Source: Paracoccus everestensis
Lineage (GTDB): Bacteria > Pseudomonadota > Alphaproteobacteria > Rhodobacterales > Rhodobacteraceae
DNA: 64,000 nt
NCBI RefSeq assembly: GCF_021491915.1
Contig: NZ_CP090836.1
Location: 62,001 to 126,000 of the forward strand
Direction of reading: 5' to 3'
This document shows positions 27,255 through 34,349 of this stretch, piece by piece. The notes under the pieces are model-generated. The model made no database searches. It was not told the origin of the DNA and saw nothing but the letters and a program-made list of their open reading frames with translations. The translations under genes and the position numbers were made by a program. Numbering within the stretch: position 1 is the first letter of the stretch; each line of letters starts with the position of its first letter.

Positions 27255-27887
27255 ATGACCCACAGCCTGCCCCTTGCCCTTGCCTGCCTTGGCCTTCTGG
27301 GACTGTCGGCCTGTTCCAACCCGGAAAAGACTGCGCGCTACATCATCGACCCGCCGGTGACGGGGGACCAGGTTCCAAACCGCCTGGGTAGCGCGGAACT
27401 GAAGGACGTGTCGCTGCCCGAATATGCGTCGGGGCAAGAGGTGGCCTTCCAGACCGAGGACGGCGCCGTGCGGTCGAACCCGCGCAACCTGTGGGCCGAC
27501 AACCCGGAACGGGCATTCACCCTGTCGCTGGCCCGTGCGATTTCCGACGCATCCGGTGCGACCGTGATCAGCGAACCCTGGCCCCTGGCCGAACCCCCGC
27601 AGCGACGGCTGGAGGTTCGGGTCGAACGCGCCCTCGCCCAGGCCAATGGCACCTATCGCCTATCGGGGCGCTATTTCGTGTCGGACGAAGGCAGCGGCGG
27701 GGCGAACCACGCCCGCAGCTTCGACATTTCCGTGCCCTTGGGAACCACCGGGCCAGAGGCCTCGGCTGCGGCGGCGTCATCGGCCATTGCCATCTTGGCC
27801 CGGCAGATCGCCACCCTGTCCGGTCCCGGCCGCACGATTGCCACCTCGGCCGCCGTGGATCCCTTCGCCCTTGATCCGTTGTTCTAG
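27255..27887 (+). CDS. pqiC: PqiC-like ABC-type transport auxiliary lipoprotein
   Basis: A 210-residue lipoprotein with signal peptide and lipobox LLGLSACSN (Cys at about residue 20) and a DUF330/PqiC domain (RLEVRVERALAQANGTYRLSGRYFV, then SAIAILARQIATL). It would sit at the outer membrane as the receiving end of the PqiAB route. It is the last gene of the operon, followed by a strong hairpin. Confidence 0.85.
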   Translation: MTHSLPLALACLGLLGLSACSNPEKTARYIIDPPVTGDQVPNRLGSAELKDVSLPEYASGQEVAFQTEDGAVRSNPRNLWADNPERAFTLSLARAISDASGATVISEPWPLAEPPQRRLEVRVERALAQANGTYRLSGRYFVSDEGSGGANHARSFDISVPLGTTGPEASAAAASSAIAILARQIATLSGPGRTIATSAAVDPFALDPLF

Positions 27888-27896
27888 GGCAAGAAA

Positions 27897-27928
27897 TTTG
27901 GCGGATGGTGCAAAAACCATCCGCCAAA
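27897..27928. terminator. 12-bp inverted repeat between convergent operons
   Basis: TTTGGCGGATGG (27897-27908) and its exact complement (27917-27928) with an 8-base loop, beginning 9 bp after the pqiC stop and ending 25 bp from the convergent gene's stop. On the minus strand the outer end reads into a T-rich stretch (AAATTTCTTG), so it may terminate both directions. Confidence 0.7.
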
Positions 27929-27953
27929 CAACCCGCAAGGGACAGGACACTGG

Positions 27954-28418
27954 TTACACGGGGGAACTTGGCGGGTTGTCCCGATCCCGGTAATCGCCGG
28001 GACGGGGTTCAGGGTCGTCGTGCAGATCGGCCCGCCCCATGACGCGGACGATGACCGGCAGCACGAACTGGTCGAAACAGCTTCGGTCGGGGGCAAAGGC
28101 ACCGGGACGACCGACGCCTCCGCAGTCTTCGCAATCCTCGATCCTGCCCCAGCAATTTGGGCAGGCACCCAGGGCGCAGGCCAGCATCTCGACATGATCG
28201 ACAAGAAGCTGGTTTTCCTGCTCGAGCCGGCGAAACGCGGCCCAGGTCGGGCGGTCGGGTTCGGCGAGAGGAGCACCGTTCCCTGACCGCCCTGGTATCA
28301 CCGTTTCCAGATCGTCGGACAGATGGACCGGCGCATTCCGCGCACCCCCCGGTCCACCGCCCAAGAGCTGAAGCGCGGCGATTACGTTGTTGAAATTCGG
28401 AATTGTGTCACCCGGCAT
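27954..28418 (-). CDS. Uncharacterised protein with zinc-ribbon-like cysteines (154 aa)
   Basis: No family was recognised. The 154-residue protein has a helical, Leu/Ala-rich N-terminal half (RRLEQENQLLVDHVEMLACALG) and a Cys cluster at residues 81, 86, 89, 96, 99 and 114. CPNCWG and CEDCGG resemble DnaJ-type zinc-binding repeats. The C-terminus is polar and Pro/Asp-rich. It has no signal peptide. AGGGA precedes ATG 28418. It lies 154 bp downstream of the subtilase-like gene on the same strand and may be the last gene of that operon. Confidence 0.65.
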   Translation of the reverse strand: MPGDTIPNFNNVIAALQLLGGGPGGARNAPVHLSDDLETVIPGRSGNGAPLAEPDRPTWAAFRRLEQENQLLVDHVEMLACALGACPNCWGRIEDCEDCGGVGRPGAFAPDRSCFDQFVLPVIVRVMGRADLHDDPEPRPGDYRDRDNPPSSPV

Positions 28419-28572
28419 GTCGTTCTTCCCTCTTGCTGCTGCCTAGCGAGGCGTCACCCCGTGCGACCGATCATCGGTTACAATGGAAGCAGTATTGGCC
28501 CGGGCCGTGAAACGGACGTGAAAGCAAGCCGAGGGAATCGCCTGAAAACCGTGAAATCCGACCGGGCGGGCG

Positions 28573-30336
28573 TTAATAATCCTTGAAACGCGCCGAAAGA
28601 CCGATGACCGGCGTGGCCGTGGAGGGGAGGATCTGATTCGGGGTTGTCTCGTTCCAGGCCAACCGGCGAATCGCTGCCCGGTCGGCCGGGGTCATGCCCT
28701 CGGACAGTTGCCGGGCCAGCCAGCGGGTCAACTGCGGAGCCGCCAGAGATGTCCCCGAGGCGAGGGTGAAGCTGCCGCTGTCGCGACCGCGCACGATCAT
28801 GCCGGGGCTGTTTCTTGCGCGGTCCACAGGCACCATGCAGTCGCCGGGCCTGATGTCGCCGCCAAGGCTGTCGGCATCCAACAGCGCCGTATAGATCGCC
28901 GCATCGTTCCCCTGTCCGCAAACCGCCCCCGCCCGCAGCGGCCAGTCGCCTGTGGCATAGGTATTGATCGTATCCTGGCGGATCACCAGGGAAGGCCCGC
29001 CATTCTTGTCGTCGGACGGAATCGGAAAGCCCGACGGATCGTGGCTTCGATAGGCGGGGTCTTGAAACCAGCTTTGCCGGGCACCCCGGCGGAACCCCCG
29101 GATCACCGCGTCGCGCTGCACGGACAGGTCATGGCGGGCGCCGGACAAGCCCTTGGCGATCCCCACCCGCCATTCGCCGGGCGGCGCAAAGGGATCCCCC
29201 AAGCGTTCGGGACAGGTCGGCGTGGCGATCACCGCGATCCCGTCGCGCCATCTGCCGCCCCGGGTCTGCTGTGGCGTGTAATAAGCCCGCGCCAGGGGGA
29301 TCCCGTCCGGACCGCTCAGGATCGAGCATTGGCCAGGCTTCGTGAAGGCGGTCGTGGCAGGCCCCAGTCCGGGCACCGTCAGGGTGATCTGCAAACCGCC
29401 GCACGGGGGGTCGTCCTGGGGCGGACCCCAGATTTCGATGGCATTGATGGTCGTGTCGTCAGGGGGCAGGCGCCAGCCGACCGATTGGCCCGGCAGCAGG
29501 CGGGCACGCAGCCGGTCCTGCCGGTGATTGCCCGCTGGCAGCACGAAATGCACCGGATCCAGATCCGCAACCTGTTGCGCGGAAACGGCATCCATGAACC
29601 GTTCCAAAAGGCTGGATCCGTCGCGCGACCCGGCGGTCAGTCCAAGGCTGATGTTGATCACCACCGGCAAACGGGCCGGACCATGGCCCTGCCGTTCCAT
29701 GAATCGGCACAGGCGCCTGGCACGATTGATGATGAAAAGGATCCCGGCAAGGATCGGGACAGGCGCCAGGGCACCCGTCGAATCGGCCGTGATCCTGGGC
29801 GGCAGGCAGACCGCGATGACCGGATGGTTCCTCGCCCGGCGGCAGGACGGATCGAAACCGGCGGCCAGGGGCGCCACCGCCGCGCCATGTCCTGTCTCGA
29901 ACGCGCCGGAGGGGGTGGCAGGACGGGTCATGTCCACCGCCCCCGTGTGGCGATAGATAGCATCCTCCCCGCCCATGTCGCCGGCCAGCAGGTCCGACAA
30001 TTCAGCCCCCCGCCATTCCGCGCCGAATGGAAGGTCTGTGGTCCGGCCGGCCCGAGGCCTCGCGTCCTGCAGCCAGACCGCGGCCATGCGCGACAGGTTG
30101 CCGGGCAGCGTGAACCGCTGATGAACAAAGGGGATTGCGTCGTCGATCACCCCGATGATGCAGCCGGTCTTTGGATCGGGCAGGGCGCCCGGGGACATCC
30201 AGGCCAGGGCCGGATCCCCGCAATCATCCTGGTCCCCTTTTGCAGGATGGGCGTTCAATGCATCGGGCGACAGGAAACCTCTGTGATCCTTCAGAAAATC
30301 CCGAAAGGCCCCCAGGATGTTCTCGGTCTCGATCAT
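28573..30336 (-). CDS. Subtilase-like (S8) serine protease, cytoplasmic
   Basis: A 587-residue protein with a plausible intact S8 triad: Asp65 in IIGVIDDAIPF, His150 in ETGHGAAVAPLAAG, and Ser530 in SGTSLAAPQL. LPAGNH at about residue 290 may provide the oxyanion Asn. The usual HGTHV around His is changed to HGAAV. No signal peptide or propeptide is evident, so it probably acts in the cytoplasm. Its ATG overlaps the stop of the 72-residue gene upstream (ATGA), linking it to the haloperoxidase-like operon. Substrate unknown. Confidence 0.75.
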   Translation of the reverse strand: MIETENILGAFRDFLKDHRGFLSPDALNAHPAKGDQDDCGDPALAWMSPGALPDPKTGCIIGVIDDAIPFVHQRFTLPGNLSRMAAVWLQDARPRAGRTTDLPFGAEWRGAELSDLLAGDMGGEDAIYRHTGAVDMTRPATPSGAFETGHGAAVAPLAAGFDPSCRRARNHPVIAVCLPPRITADSTGALAPVPILAGILFIINRARRLCRFMERQGHGPARLPVVINISLGLTAGSRDGSSLLERFMDAVSAQQVADLDPVHFVLPAGNHRQDRLRARLLPGQSVGWRLPPDDTTINAIEIWGPPQDDPPCGGLQITLTVPGLGPATTAFTKPGQCSILSGPDGIPLARAYYTPQQTRGGRWRDGIAVIATPTCPERLGDPFAPPGEWRVGIAKGLSGARHDLSVQRDAVIRGFRRGARQSWFQDPAYRSHDPSGFPIPSDDKNGGPSLVIRQDTINTYATGDWPLRAGAVCGQGNDAAIYTALLDADSLGGDIRPGDCMVPVDRARNSPGMIVRGRDSGSFTLASGTSLAAPQLTRWLARQLSEGMTPADRAAIRRLAWNETTPNQILPSTATPVIGLSARFKDY

Positions 30337-30551
30337 CTTTCGAACGTCCGGCAGATCAGATCGTGCAACGCCTCTTCAAGCTTCACCAACAGATCTGCAT
30401 CGGCCCTTTGCCCGGGTGGTTCGCCCGAGGAAACCTTGGTCCGATGCGCCTGCAGGTCATGATGGTAATGCAGATAGGACGACAGCCCGGGCTGAGACAT
30501 ATGAGCCGCGTAGGGTTCGGACCAGCGGACCGGGGGCGGGTCTTCCTTCAT
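30333..30551 (-). CDS. Small uncharacterised protein (72 aa) between haloperoxidase-like and subtilase-like genes
   Basis: A 72-residue protein, MKEDPPPVRWSEPYAAHMSQPG..., rich in His, Pro and Tyr in its first half, with a short C-terminal helix (DADLLVKLEEALHDLICRTF). No family recognised. Its existence is supported by ATGA overlaps with both neighbours, upstream at 30548-30551 and downstream at 30333-30336. The position suggests a partner or adaptor for one of the two enzymes; that is inference. Confidence 0.65.
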   Translation of the reverse strand: MKEDPPPVRWSEPYAAHMSQPGLSSYLHYHHDLQAHRTKVSSGEPPGQRADADLLVKLEEALHDLICRTFER

Positions 30552-31648
30552 GACCACCGGTCCCCCCATTCCTTTGCCGCGCGCTGGCACAGCGATGTCC
30601 ACAAGGGCGCCGGGCGTGCCGTGGTCGCGTCATCATTGAACCGGGTCGAGGGATCCTGGTTCGTCACCATCTGGTTCAGGATGGCGTAATGAAAATCGCG
30701 GGGCGTCCCCGCACCCCCGTTGAACGCGCCGCCGTCGAATGTCGCCGACCCCAACTGGCCGTTCGATCCGCGCGCCATCAGGTAACGCCCCAACTGGATG
30801 CCCAGCACCGCCCCCGCCGCGCTGTCGATGGGGAAATGCACCCCCGCAACCGTCCGGTTGATCGCGATGCGGCAGGCCAGGCGATAGATCTGGCTGTCGC
30901 TGACCACCTTGGCTGCCGGGTCATCCAGAAGCGACAGCATCGTCGCCAGGGTGAACATCTGCGTCGCATGGCCGCTGGGCAGCGTGGGATGAGCTGGTTC
31001 GGGGATCATCGGCTGGATGCGGTCGCTGAACTGATTGGGCCGGGGGCAGCCAAGCGCCAGCTTGACCCGCATCACCACGGGCGTGACCAGGGCCAGCCCC
31101 AGTTCCAGCATCTCGGCCAGGGCCGGGTTGCGGACAGGGTCAAGGGGCAAGATGCTGGCCAGGAAGGGGATCAGGTATTGCTGCTGGGCCAAGATCTCGG
31201 CCATGCGATCGGACCGCAGCTCGGCATAGTTGACAACCAGGGGCGCGGCGTTGGCGAAATCCGCCACATCCGGACGGGTGATCTTGGCAAGGGGGACATA
31301 TGCGGCCGCCCCGCAACCGGCCAGGCGCCGTTCCACTGCAATCGCTTGCGATGTTTCCTGCGTCGGGCTGTAATCCTCGGCGACGAAGGCAAGGTCTTCC
31401 AGCAACTCGGACATCAGGACGGCATCGCGATAATCGCGCGGCAAGCGGTACAACCGGTCGGCGATTTTCAACCTGCTTGGCTTGGTCTGCGGAAGGGCGA
31501 TGGTTTCCGTGCCGACAATAGCATCGCGAGATCGCATCAGGGCGGCGGCCAAAAGATCATCAACAGACGCCCAACCTAAGCCTTGCCCGTTTTGCCCATT
31601 CTGACCGTTCTGTCCATTTTGCCCGTTTTGTGTGTTAAGCAAGGACAT
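30548..31648 (-). CDS. Vanadium-dependent haloperoxidase-like / PAP2-superfamily enzyme
   Basis: A 366-residue protein with the complete vanadate/phosphate-binding signature: Lys196 and Arg203-Pro204 (VKLALGCPRPNQ), Ser225-Gly-His227 (PSGHA), and Arg265, His271 and Asp275 (RTVAGVHFPID). The large helical N-terminal domain and the lack of membrane segments or a signal peptide fit soluble vanadium haloperoxidases or related acid phosphatases rather than lipid phosphatases. Residues 8-22 are five NGQ repeats. ATG 31648 has GAGG ahead. It heads a leftward operon divergent from a SARP/TPR regulator. Confidence 0.75.
   Translation of the reverse strand: MSLLNTQNGQNGQNGQNGQNGQGLGWASVDDLLAAALMRSRDAIVGTETIALPQTKPSRLKIADRLYRLPRDYRDAVLMSELLEDLAFVAEDYSPTQETSQAIAVERRLAGCGAAAYVPLAKITRPDVADFANAAPLVVNYAELRSDRMAEILAQQQYLIPFLASILPLDPVRNPALAEMLELGLALVTPVVMRVKLALGCPRPNQFSDRIQPMIPEPAHPTLPSGHATQMFTLATMLSLLDDPAAKVVSDSQIYRLACRIAINRTVAGVHFPIDSAAGAVLGIQLGRYLMARGSNGQLGSATFDGGAFNGGAGTPRDFHYAILNQMVTNQDPSTRFNDDATTARPAPLWTSLCQRAAKEWGDRWS
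31583..31627 (-). repeat. In-frame tandem repeat encoding five NGQ units
   Basis: Five consecutive 9-bp units (AAYGGVCAR-like) encode NGQ at residues 8-22 of the haloperoxidase-like protein, preceded by a variant NTQ. Units differ only at third positions. Slippage here would change protein length without a frameshift. Confidence 0.8.
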
Positions 31649-31714
31649 CGCTCAACCTCATAAACCAATATGAATCGAAAACACTGTATCTTTGCCGTAA
31701 GGTAAAGCGTAACA

Positions 31715-31729
31715 AATACCGGGTATTTC
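31715..31729. promoter_or_regulatory. Perfect palindrome in divergent promoter region, candidate operator
   Basis: AAATACC-G-GGTATTT lies in the 98-bp A+T-rich gap between the divergent haloperoxidase-like gene and regulator gene, 18 bp before the regulator ATG. Palindromes at this position are typical operators; which protein binds is unknown. Confidence 0.5.
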
Positions 31730-31746
31730 TCCTACGTATTTCTCGC

Positions 31747-33288
31747 ATGCAGTCGCTGACGCTTCGCCTCATGGGGCCGGTCGAACTGACCGGGCCGGGA
31801 AACCTGCGCCTCACACCGCGCGGCATGCGGGCGCGTGGCGCATTGGCGGTGATAGGCAGCGCGACGGCCATGCGGGTGATGCGCGCGAGATTGCAGGATC
31901 TGCTGTTCAGCACGCGCGATCCCGATCATGCCAATGCCAGCCTGCGCCAGGTGCTGCGCGAAATTCGCGTCAGCTTGGGAACTGCGCGCGATGCCTTGGT
32001 CAGCGGACCAGGATGGGTGGGCCTGGACAGCGGCATTGTCCGGCTGGACATGACCGCCCGGCCCGGCCCCGACGGGCAGATGCCGGAATTTGCCGCCGAC
32101 CTGGACATCCCCGATCCAGAATTCGAAGACTGGCTGCGCGACGCGCGGATGCACGCGGAACAGGCCGTCACCCCATCCGCGCCCGAGCCGTCGCTGTTGC
32201 CGGTCCTGCTGACAGCGGAACCTGTCGCGGGCGACAGCGAAACTGCCGTGATTGCGTCAATCATCTTGGGCGAGGCGGCGGGCCGGGTCTGCGACCTGGT
32301 ACCAATGGTCGCCATGCCCGACCGGACGGAACCGGGGCAGTCCGCCATTGTCCTGTCGGCCATGGCCAACCGTTCGGGCCAGACCATTCACATGCTTGTC
32401 AAGCTGGCTCATCGACCCAGCAGCCGGTTATTCTGGTCGCATAAGTTCGTGTTGAACGCAGGCGACCTGACTGCTGCCATGGCCGATTGTGCCACCGAAA
32501 TCTGCGTCGGCATCCTTCGCGTCCTGGAGGCGGTGCGCACCATTGACGCGGCGCTTGGCGTGTCCCTTACCGATGTGTTCAGCTACAACGAAGCGCGACT
32601 GCACCGGGCCGAGCAGGCGTTGAGGAACATGGACGACGGGGTCAACGCATCCCTGACCAAAGCATTGCGGGCTTGGGTGATGACCACGCAGGTATTCGAA
32701 CGCCTGGTACCTGATCCGCGAAGCAGCATTCAAGAGGCCCAGGAACTTGCGACAAAGGCACGCGAAGCTGATCCCTACAGCGCAACCGCCCTGGCGGTAG
32801 GATCGGTGGTCGAAGGCTATCTGGACCATGGCCAGGTCAGCCTTTGGCTGGCGCAGCAGGCAGTGCAGATGGATCCGCGAAACTTCGTGGCACGCAATGC
32901 CTATTCCCAGGCCCTGACTGATCTGGGCCACCACAAGGAGGCCTATCGCGAAGCGCAGGCGGGGCTGGCCGAGGCGCTGCCGGTCCTGAACCCCGCCACC
33001 TTGCAGATGCGCCTGGGTATCGCACTGACGCGGCTTGGCCGCTTCGACGAGGCCGAACAGCGATTCGAGACGGTCCAGCAGTTCGCCCCGGAAAATCGTC
33101 CCTCGCTGCGGTTCCTCGCGGCCCTGCGGTACCACCGCCATGACGAAGCAGGCGCGCTGGCGGCGCTTGAATCCCTGCGCAGGGTCGAGCCTGGCTTTAC
33201 CCTGGATCTGATGCGCAGCGACGGCTATCCGGTCGCCACCCTGCGCCAGGGAGGATTGCTGGGCGTCACCCGGTCGGGACTGATCTAG
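31747..33288 (+). CDS. SARP-like winged-helix/TPR transcriptional regulator
   Basis: A 513-residue protein. Residues about 1-105 resemble the winged-helix domain of SARP/BTAD-type activators (LTLRLMGPVEL..., DHANASLRQVLREIRVSLG... VGLDSGIVRLD). A middle domain at about 150-280 has the alpha/beta pattern of adenylate-cyclase-associated or CadC-like regulators. The C-terminal part carries TPR-like helices (AYREAQAGLAEAL, IALTRLGRFDEAEQRFETVQQFAPENR). There is no membrane segment. Divergent placement suggests it controls the haloperoxidase-like operon and itself. Its stop shares CTAG with the convergent gene's stop. Confidence 0.72.
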   Translation: MQSLTLRLMGPVELTGPGNLRLTPRGMRARGALAVIGSATAMRVMRARLQDLLFSTRDPDHANASLRQVLREIRVSLGTARDALVSGPGWVGLDSGIVRLDMTARPGPDGQMPEFAADLDIPDPEFEDWLRDARMHAEQAVTPSAPEPSLLPVLLTAEPVAGDSETAVIASIILGEAAGRVCDLVPMVAMPDRTEPGQSAIVLSAMANRSGQTIHMLVKLAHRPSSRLFWSHKFVLNAGDLTAAMADCATEICVGILRVLEAVRTIDAALGVSLTDVFSYNEARLHRAEQALRNMDDGVNASLTKALRAWVMTTQVFERLVPDPRSSIQEAQELATKAREADPYSATALAVGSVVEGYLDHGQVSLWLAQQAVQMDPRNFVARNAYSQALTDLGHHKEAYREAQAGLAEALPVLNPATLQMRLGIALTRLGRFDEAEQRFETVQQFAPENRPSLRFLAALRYHRHDEAGALAALESLRRVEPGFTLDLMRSDGYPVATLRQGGLLGVTRSGLI

Positions 33289-34349
33289 CGGCCCTCGTCG
33301 GCCAGGATCCTTTCCGCTTCCTCGACCATCGGGTTCCAGTCGAACCGCGCGACGATGATGCCATGGTCGTTGTATCCAAGGCGCTTGCGGTCGCCATCCG
33401 TTGCGGTCAGGTGATCGTTCAGAACCCGCATTTCCCTGAACGACCATGAACGGATCGCCGAATGGTCGTAAAAGGAATCCGACACCAGGATGTGATCCAG
33501 CGATTCCATCTGGTTCTGGAAAACATAGGTGTAATACACGTGCCGGAACGACCGGAGCTGTTGCAGCTTTTCGACCGTGTAAAGGCCCGTGTCCGACTTG
33601 TTTCCAGCCGTGCTTTTGGCAAAGAACCGATAACCCGGATTTCCCGTCAGCAATTCGGTCGAGACCGAGGTGGTGGCATCGTTCAGATCGCCAAGGACCA
33701 CCACCGGCTTGTCGTTCCTGCGCATTTCGTCGTTCAGGATGGCGCGGAAGGCCCCGGCCTCGACCATGCGGCGGACATGGGACACCACGGTCTGCGCGAT
33801 GAACTTGTGTCGCCGCAGCACTGGATTGTCATCGTCGGCGCGCAGGGATGTCGGCCCCTTGGACTTCAGATGGGCGACAAAGACGGTGATGTCGGGCGTC
33901 CCGTCGGCCTTGTTCACCAGAACCTGCAGCAGGGGACGAGAGAACTTGCGGATCGTGACGCTGACCGATTCCTCGGCGTCGCGGGATTCCTGCAGGTCGG
34001 TGAAGCGCGCATCCTCGGGCAGGTCCGCGATCCATTCGGGCGGGCCTTGCAGCATCCCCTTGCGCACCGCAAGCGCCACCTGGATGCCGGGCGGTTCGGT
34101 GGTGCGGGCCACCAGGTCATAGCGGCCCTTCAGCGCCGGACGCTCAAAGATCTCGGCCAAAGCCTTTGCATCCCAGCATTCCTGGAAACCGATGATATCG
34201 GCGTCGATATCGTCCAGAATCCGTTCGGAAAAGGCGATCTTTGCGTCGTATTGAGCATCAGACCAGCCGTCGTCGTCATAGATCGGCTGGCCCGGCAGGT
34301 TGAGGTTCAACAGGTTGAAATTGGCGATGCTGATGTCTTTGCGGGCCAT
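33285..34349 (-). CDS. Endonuclease/exonuclease/phosphatase-family protein
   Basis: A 354-residue member of the EEP (DNase I-like) fold: Asn in SIANFNLLNLN, Glu in IIGFQECWD, Asp/Asn in VVLGDLND, and the terminal SLDHILVS and YNDHGIIVARF with the catalytic His. Such enzymes hydrolyse phosphodiesters in DNA, RNA, lipids or small molecules; the substrate is not predictable. There is no signal peptide. ATG 34349. It converges on the SARP-like gene with a 4-bp overlap of stop codons. Whether it belongs to the haloperoxidase-like cluster is uncertain. Confidence 0.8.
   Translation of the reverse strand: MARKDISIANFNLLNLNLPGQPIYDDDGWSDAQYDAKIAFSERILDDIDADIIGFQECWDAKALAEIFERPALKGRYDLVARTTEPPGIQVALAVRKGMLQGPPEWIADLPEDARFTDLQESRDAEESVSVTIRKFSRPLLQVLVNKADGTPDITVFVAHLKSKGPTSLRADDDNPVLRRHKFIAQTVVSHVRRMVEAGAFRAILNDEMRRNDKPVVVLGDLNDATTSVSTELLTGNPGYRFFAKSTAGNKSDTGLYTVEKLQQLRSFRHVYYTYVFQNQMESLDHILVSDSFYDHSAIRSWSFREMRVLNDHLTATDGDRKRLGYNDHGIIVARFDWNPMVEEAERILADEGR

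Follow-up and report, generated by a model that had tools for sequence, protein, structure and literature searches.

Why would a soluble enzyme open with the same three amino acids five times over, and does any gene beside it take account of them? The question is raised by a locus in a 64,000-nucleotide stretch of Paracoccus everestensis DNA (contig NZ_CP090836.1, positions 62,001 to 126,000, forward strand; hereafter the window), in which a 366-amino-acid enzyme of the PAP2 family (30548-31648, minus strand) is encoded divergently from a 513-amino-acid regulator, here termed REG (31747-33288, plus strand). At its N-terminus PAP2 carries (QNG)x5 (31586-31630, minus strand), a repeat that is perfect in the protein, with diversified codons; it is the main feature of the locus and was missing from the original prediction, a short note on this DNA made from the sequence alone. 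Among relatives, the repeat unit co-varies with the tetratricopeptide repeat (TPR) region of REG (residues 301-480; 32647-33186, plus strand). From this co-variation we infer, with a probability of roughly 0.6, that the genes form a self-addressed regulatory circuit in which the TPR groove would bind the repeat, coupling enzyme and regulator.

Conservation of the module

A PAP2 scan of GTDB genomes returned 117 relatives, from which 80 loci were kept; 71 were proteobacterial (L001-L071), and nine from Firmicutes (L072-L080; generic PAP2 proteins, no S8 match) were excluded from alignments. A gene for an S8 subtilase-like protein (28573-30336, minus strand, in the window) adjoins PAP2 in 66 of the 71 proteobacterial loci; the other five loci are cut short, their sequence stopping at most 0.9 kb from PAP2. 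REG lies directly upstream of PAP2 in 67 loci, and in the remaining four the sequence of the locus starts at most 0.9 kb from PAP2; the orientation of REG is divergent in 23 loci and codirectional in 44. Within the genus of the window occurrence is patchy, with an S8 match in 55 of 125 genomes. PAP2 was present in 56 of 58 regions fetched around such matches, the two without it being L146, near a contig end, and L150, which lacks REG as well (one weak 74-residue match, in genome G110, lay outside the 58 regions). In a phylum sample of 398 genomes, including that of the window, 20 carried PAP2 at E <=1e-20, in 22 places; REG was found at all 22 (21 by tblastn, one by eye), an S8 peptidase at 19 and an A4 peptidase at two. 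REG, PAP2 and S8 are a conserved module in Alpha- and Betaproteobacteria. The conserved gene set with a linked regulator that had been predicted is thereby borne out, and the independent scattering of homologues that would have told against it is not seen for these three genes, which stay together.

REG consists of a SARP-like winged helix (residues 1-130), an alpha/beta middle domain resembling FlgO and CadC (about 164-263) and a TPR superhelix (about 301-480). Its structure model (predicted local distance difference test score 89.9) contains an N-terminal helix/strand domain, read as the winged helix, plus the TPRs, and the top Foldseek matches include consensus TPRs, the CadC periplasmic domain and the TPR of OGT; a SARP-type BTAD domain scored below cut-off (E 0.0088). 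CadC-type regulators share the winged helix, the alpha/beta middle and the TPR-like bundle, but REG has no apparent membrane segment between winged helix and middle domain, as judged from the sequence and the helices of the model. REG is a cytoplasmic regulator. The TPR part is retained among relatives while the front domain swaps: it is an OmpR-type winged helix in L209 and in the Phaeobacter plasmid locus L174, and a class III nucleotide cyclase in L003, L006, L016, L017, L182, L183, L206 and L207. The peptidase is exchanged as well, since an A4 enzyme (eqolisin, also called G1), unrelated to S8, occupies the place of S8 in L182, L183, L205 and L206, in a row with a cyclase-TPR regulator (L205 by eye) and a repeat-bearing PAP2. 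Because both REG fronts and peptidase families swap, the persisting core is TPR regulator, PAP2 and nearly always some peptidase.

Decayed or split copies of the module, with regulator, PAP2 or S8 in several pieces, occur in L122, L133, L135 and L179, and because such copies exist the module seems dispensable. The copy on the Phaeobacter inhibens plasmid (L174), which is typed as conjugative, lies near a kynureninase/3-hydroxyanthranilate dioxygenase gene group, in the only record read that far.

The tandem repeat of the PAP2 enzyme

N-terminal tandem arrays were detected by script in 115 of 125 PAP2 genes (one locus being counted twice, as L001 and L099), with 58 different units in 3 to 21 copies; 104 of the 115 arrays have tripeptide units. 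At least four of the ten genes in which the script found none show arrays by eye (L054, L068, L139, L144), and the repeat was seen by eye at all 22 places of the phylum sample (L156 in part). Units range from QNG in the window through HGE, HGQ, NAQ, HAK and NAH in the genus to GGA, SSY, HAD, STQ and GQ further away. Elsewhere in the genome of the window no run of three QNG (GQN) copies is encoded, and seven Phaeobacter records share a constant unit (NSF) in 5 to 7 copies.

Neighbouring copies, imperfect ones allowed, differ by 1500 synonymous versus 42 amino-acid codon changes, a comparison with some bias against amino-acid changes, since three exact copies were needed to start an array and it was lengthened only where the next copy was at least half alike. 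Where neighbouring copies encode the same residue, the two codons differ in 1432 of 2074 cases (69%), compared with 61.5% after shuffling within the array (z 8.6; 0 of 1000 shuffles); the codon usage of the gene itself would predict 51.6%. The GC content at third codon positions is 0.56 in the arrays and 0.76 in the rest. Because codons differ in excess over the shuffles, either the peptide is kept constant while identity of the DNA is avoided, or arrays of identical DNA do not last. An interpretation of the repeat as a DNA-level element was rejected since codons differ between copies, and a collagen-like tract was rejected as a general explanation because many units are without Gly (NAQ, HAK, SSY, HAD).

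Across 4257 long open segments of 151 sequences, 144 arrays were found, and 116 were recognised as PAP2 by motif. Among the other 28, inspection by eye covered the 15 with mainly third-position differences, which comprised seven further PAP2 N-termini, six arrays read in antisense and two that belong to a single collagen-like gene (Firmicutes L072); 13 of the 144 lie outside the inspected set. Where two arrays were read in one genome their units differed in five of five cases: G047 (HAK, AGK), G080 (QAH, GNH), G223 (GGF, NAE), G462 (TAM, GNQ) and G239 (NSF and an irregular GL-rich tract). This fits insulation between modules, and fits plain divergence too.

Co-variation of the repeat unit with the regulator

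The co-variation analysis covered 107 loci that have all three proteins and an array, out of 122, 118 and 124 sequences in the respective families, and excluded the duplicate L001. When PAP2 identity is matched, loci that share a unit are more similar in the TPR region by 0.118 (bootstrap 0.059 to 0.186) and in the REG middle region by 0.107 (0.039 to 0.194), and no unit effect was found in the winged helix (+0.015, -0.032 to 0.078), in S8 (+0.004, -0.019 to 0.034) or in the PAP2 core (+0.009, -0.004 to 0.023). Disjoint pairs were taken from a tree of PAP2 and S8; 40 of 53 (identity >0.42) were used, one of them without TPR data, and the 13 at <=0.42, all of different unit, were dropped. TPR divergence relative to PAP2/S8 was 0.33 in same-unit pairs (n=22) versus 0.86 in different-unit pairs (n=17 with data of 18), with p 6.9e-6; both the identity limit of 0.42 and the set of nine regions were chosen by the analyst, and the p values carry no correction for these choices. 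The TPR effect is seen in divergent loci alone (p 1.2e-4; 14 same-unit and 12 different-unit pairs), in codirectional loci (p 0.015; 8 and 5) and outside Paracoccus (p 0.0037; 10 and 6, overlapping the two preceding sets). On the same pairs the winged helix gave p 0.11 to 0.42, and the S8/PAP2 control was flat. An identity-stratified permutation gave p 2e-4 for the TPR region and 0.27 for the winged helix (38 pairs). Individual pairs illustrate the pattern: L093 (HGE) and L095 (HGQ) agree to 95% in PAP2/S8 and to 98% in the winged helix but to 91% in the TPR region, whereas for L094 and L096, both with HGQ, the corresponding figures are 94%, 98% and 99%.

Positions 2, 5, 9, 12 and 13 of a TPR are concave ligand positions, as the excerpted text of PMC1261162 describes them. 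With repeat starts placed at residues 346, 380 and 417 from the REG model, these positions co-vary above the rest over all pairs (0.329 versus 0.207, p 0.004), and a first guess at the register, made before the model, gave p 0.024 for groove enrichment. In same-unit versus different-unit pairs, identity was 100 versus 59% at residue 350, 100 versus 69% at residue 384 and 95 versus 56% at residue 388. Residues 350, 360, 384, 388 and 419 vary between near-identical regulators with different units: the HGE loci L093, L097 and L100 have G350, K360 and R388, the HGQ loci L094-L096 and L099 have A350, N360 and Q388, and the window (QNG) and L098 (NAQ) have D360, F380, V381 and L419.

Several observations weigh against binding of the repeat in the TPR groove, or against a simple form of it. 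The REG middle domain also co-varies on the disjoint pairs (p 0.007 over all pairs, 0.31 in codirectional loci), and the nearest neighbour in the TPR region shares the unit in 52 of 68 cases, a slight gain over 46-49 of 68 for other regions. Groove enrichment on independent pairs reaches p 0.06 only; the chosen register is the best of 35 shifts by a narrow lead (the next gives 0.320), and the co-variation signal has no 34-residue autocorrelation. The idea of Lys or Arg facing the Glu of a unit has exceptions, as K360 also occurs in L102 (QGQ) and R388 in HAK loci; charge complementarity over all columns was discarded, being not beyond chance, with position 360 ranking second in REG and S8 columns equally large. 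The 11 of 115 units that are not tripeptides are unexplained by a strict match of one TPR per tripeptide, and at L181, in the phylum sample, no peptidase was seen beside PAP2.

Proposed mechanism and alternatives

In the proposed circuit, PAP2 would present a disordered N-terminal tail of one short peptide in 3 to 21 copies; residues 1-25 are disordered in the PAP2 model. The TPR groove of REG would bind this tail, as the co-variation suggests, and PAP2 would thereby be tied to, and control, the regulator encoded beside it. Bound PAP2 might hold REG off, a guess by analogy with MalT, and the co-encoded peptidase, whether S8 or A4, would most likely cut the tail or PAP2 and so release or reset REG, a role to which its near-constant presence points. 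The unit would be free to take many wordings as long as its copies agree with one another and the groove fits them; because any such wording would work, the unit could differ from species to species and from one module to another within a genome.

MalY, on which the analogy leans, is an enzyme, and we know of no repeat tag in the regulation of MalT. The likeness lies in a regulator held by an inhibitory protein, MalT being sequestered by MalY in the excerpt of PMC10427625; REG differs in that no STAND ATPase domain was matched in it at the Pfam cut-off.

A broader claim, held tentatively and at somewhat under even odds, is that these pairs embody a natural, freely re-writable peptide-recognition code: TPR motifs would read successive copies of one peptide on a partner enzyme, selection would keep the copies identical in protein and diversify their codons, and the wording would be renewed together with the groove, so that every species, and every one of several modules in a cell, would have a private address. 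Designed repeat proteins bind tripeptide-repeat peptides with the repeats matched one-to-one, according to the excerpt of Wu et al. 2023 (PMC10115654). Those proteins are man-made, whereas the module would be a natural pair with dozens of unit wordings. If this is true, nature already does what designers built in 2023, a repeat protein reading a repeated short peptide, in dozens of versions, and the natural pairs could be used as they stand to work out a TPR recognition code and as tags for synthetic biology. It would also mean a widespread, unnamed proteobacterial regulatory module in which the output domain (winged helix or cyclase) and the peptidase (S8 or A4) can be exchanged. The repeat itself poses an evolutionary puzzle that is open to direct test: its copies agree perfectly in protein yet vary in DNA, and close relatives use different units. 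No description of the gene set, of a tripeptide-repeat PAP2 or of tandem-repeat/TPR pairs was found in the open-licence PubMed Central literature, so far as its excerpts extend, nor in the excerpt of PMC7159879, which agrees with the prediction of an undescribed system. The component families are known; we can name no kind of regulator that follows a re-writable tandem tag carried by its partner enzyme.

A real if minor possibility is that the TPR regulator senses not whole PAP2 but identical peptides into which the peptidase cuts the repeat, as in intracellular signalling of the RRNPP type. RRNPP regulators (ComR/ComS, PlcR, Rap) have a helix-turn-helix and TPR make-up, and their peptide comes from a separate short propeptide gene and is exported and imported. 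The layout, a TPR receptor gene beside a propeptide gene, would be shared with the module, and the near-constant peptidase from two unrelated families, the identical copies and the TPR co-variation would all be explained. Adjacency of receptor and cognate peptide genes, and co-evolution of the two, are reported in the excerpts of PMC8605241 and PMC10075063. A receptor with a cognate neighbouring peptide would be common to both, but in the proteobacterial module the peptide is carried in tandem copies at the N-terminus of an enzyme, a peptidase gene is present and the output domain can be a nucleotide cyclase. No propeptide reading frame, export signal or processing site was seen by inspection, the repeat being instead the N-terminus of the 366-amino-acid enzyme, and short fragments cut from arrays of GGA or GQ, for example, would make ligands of little specificity. 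Furthermore, S8 does not co-vary with the unit, and the conserved active site of PAP2 argues that the enzyme is no mere carrier.

It is unlikely that the repeat drives self-assembly of PAP2 without direct contact with REG, the TPR co-variation then being a by-product of joint replacement of a gene segment. Perfect low-complexity repeats often assemble, and the REG and PAP2 genes are adjacent. However, in divergent loci the winged-helix part sits between the repeat and the TPR part, and because it shows no signal there (p 0.42 versus 1.2e-4 for the TPR region) a single exchanged segment cannot explain the TPR signal; this argument fails in codirectional loci, with their five different-unit pairs.

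The reading first offered for this locus, in which an oxidising haloperoxidase acts with a protease and a zinc-ribbon protein in defence or in the response to damage, has a slim chance, for which the intact vanadate/phosphate pocket and the patchy occurrence speak. The vanadate pocket motif (K-x6-RP, PSGH, R-x5-H) is common to haloperoxidases and acid phosphatases, and class A acid phosphatases, which are secreted with a signal peptide, carry the signature K-x6-RP / PSGH / SR-x5-H-x3-D. The pocket is intact in the window (K196, R203, PSGH 224-227, R265, H271) and conserved across loci, with K196, R203 and H227 in 68 of 68, R265 and H271 in 67, S225 in 59 and G226 in 60. The class A signature is complete except that SR is replaced by NR (N264 and R265, each in 67 of 68), acid phosphatases rank first in a sequence search of the PDB with PAP2, and the modelled fold appears to resemble class A acid phosphatases more than it does haloperoxidases, about 70 N-terminal residues lying outside the match. 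By sequence and modelled fold PAP2 would be a soluble class A acid-phosphatase-like core, with a haloperoxidase less likely than a phosphatase, although the pocket common to both is intact. From PhoC, PhoN and 7f17 the enzyme differs in its N-terminal repeat, its extra beta strands in the model and the absence, by eye, of a signal peptide, its N-terminus in the window being the polar repeat. The suggested inducible defence found no backing, as six proteins gave no PADLOC family at E 0.001 and one at 0.05, for REG. The patchy occurrence, plasmid copies and decayed copies would fit an accessory role.

That the peptidase reads the repeat as a multi-site substrate tag matched to the protease is very unlikely, since, although the near-constant peptidase partner and the hypervariable S8 N-terminus would suit it, S8 regions from residue 52 on show no unit co-variation (-0.009 to +0.016, all bootstrap intervals including 0).

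Additional features of the locus

Downstream of PAP2 lie, on the same strand, a 72-amino-acid open reading frame (30333-30551) and the S8 gene, each joined to the gene before it by an ATGA overlap, and, after a gap of 154 bp, a gene for a 154-amino-acid CPxC/CxxC zinc-ribbon protein (27954-28418). This arrangement of three overlapping genes, a fourth on the same strand and a divergent regulator is as originally described, and inspection by eye agrees that none of the enzymes has a visible signal peptide. Pfam matched PAP2 (E 4e-14), TPR (E 1e-6) and, under its cut-off, S8 (E 0.014), and found no family for the 72- and 154-amino-acid proteins.

The subtilase has conserved D65 (65 of 67 loci), H150 and N270 (67 of 67 each) and S530 (66 of 67), which completes the oxyanion/catalytic set. 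Its Pfam score varies from no match at E 0.01 in L002, through below cut-off in the window, to above cut-off in L020 and L209, and a sequence search of the PDB gave weak matches to clostridial germination proteases (CspB and a relative). The 72-amino-acid segment (SPYLHY) is a separate reading frame in the window and most close relatives. In L100 and L101 this segment and S8 form one continuous reading frame, so the small reading frame, judged by these sequences, is the split-off front of the subtilase and not the separate component it had been taken for; fused S8 proteins elsewhere start with a similar (D)PYxxW motif. Across L002-L071 the stretch before the S8 domain, often 100-180 residues, is hypervariable and often opens with PYxxW.

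The zinc-ribbon gene occurs in 40 of 125 genomes of the genus and adjoins S8 in 29; it lies away from S8 in 11, and pqiC was adjacent in 7 of the ten of these that were fetched. As it is often near pqiC with or without the module, its membership, assumed at first, was rejected, and we take it as part of a neighbouring pqi locus. The interval 27255-28418 may hold a pqi-linked gene, the zinc-ribbon gene often occurring with pqiC in the genus.

Between REG and PAP2, the imperfect inverted repeat TTTGCC-N4-GGTAAA (31691-31706) is kept, as TTTGCC-N4-GG(T/G)AAA, in the window and the ten closest relatives examined (L093-L102), and is a candidate operator. The palindrome noticed earlier in this interval, AAATACCGGGTATTT (31714-31728), exists in the window sequence but is missing from all ten of these relatives and was rejected as an operator. 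An endonuclease/exonuclease/phosphatase gene (33285-34349) is convergent with REG, the ends overlapping by 4 bases, and adjoins the module in several close relatives. At a more distant locus (L213:8241-11192), a 983-amino-acid open frame with no Pfam match at E 0.01 converges on genes for a TPR regulator and for a PAP2 whose N-terminus has GL-rich repeats.

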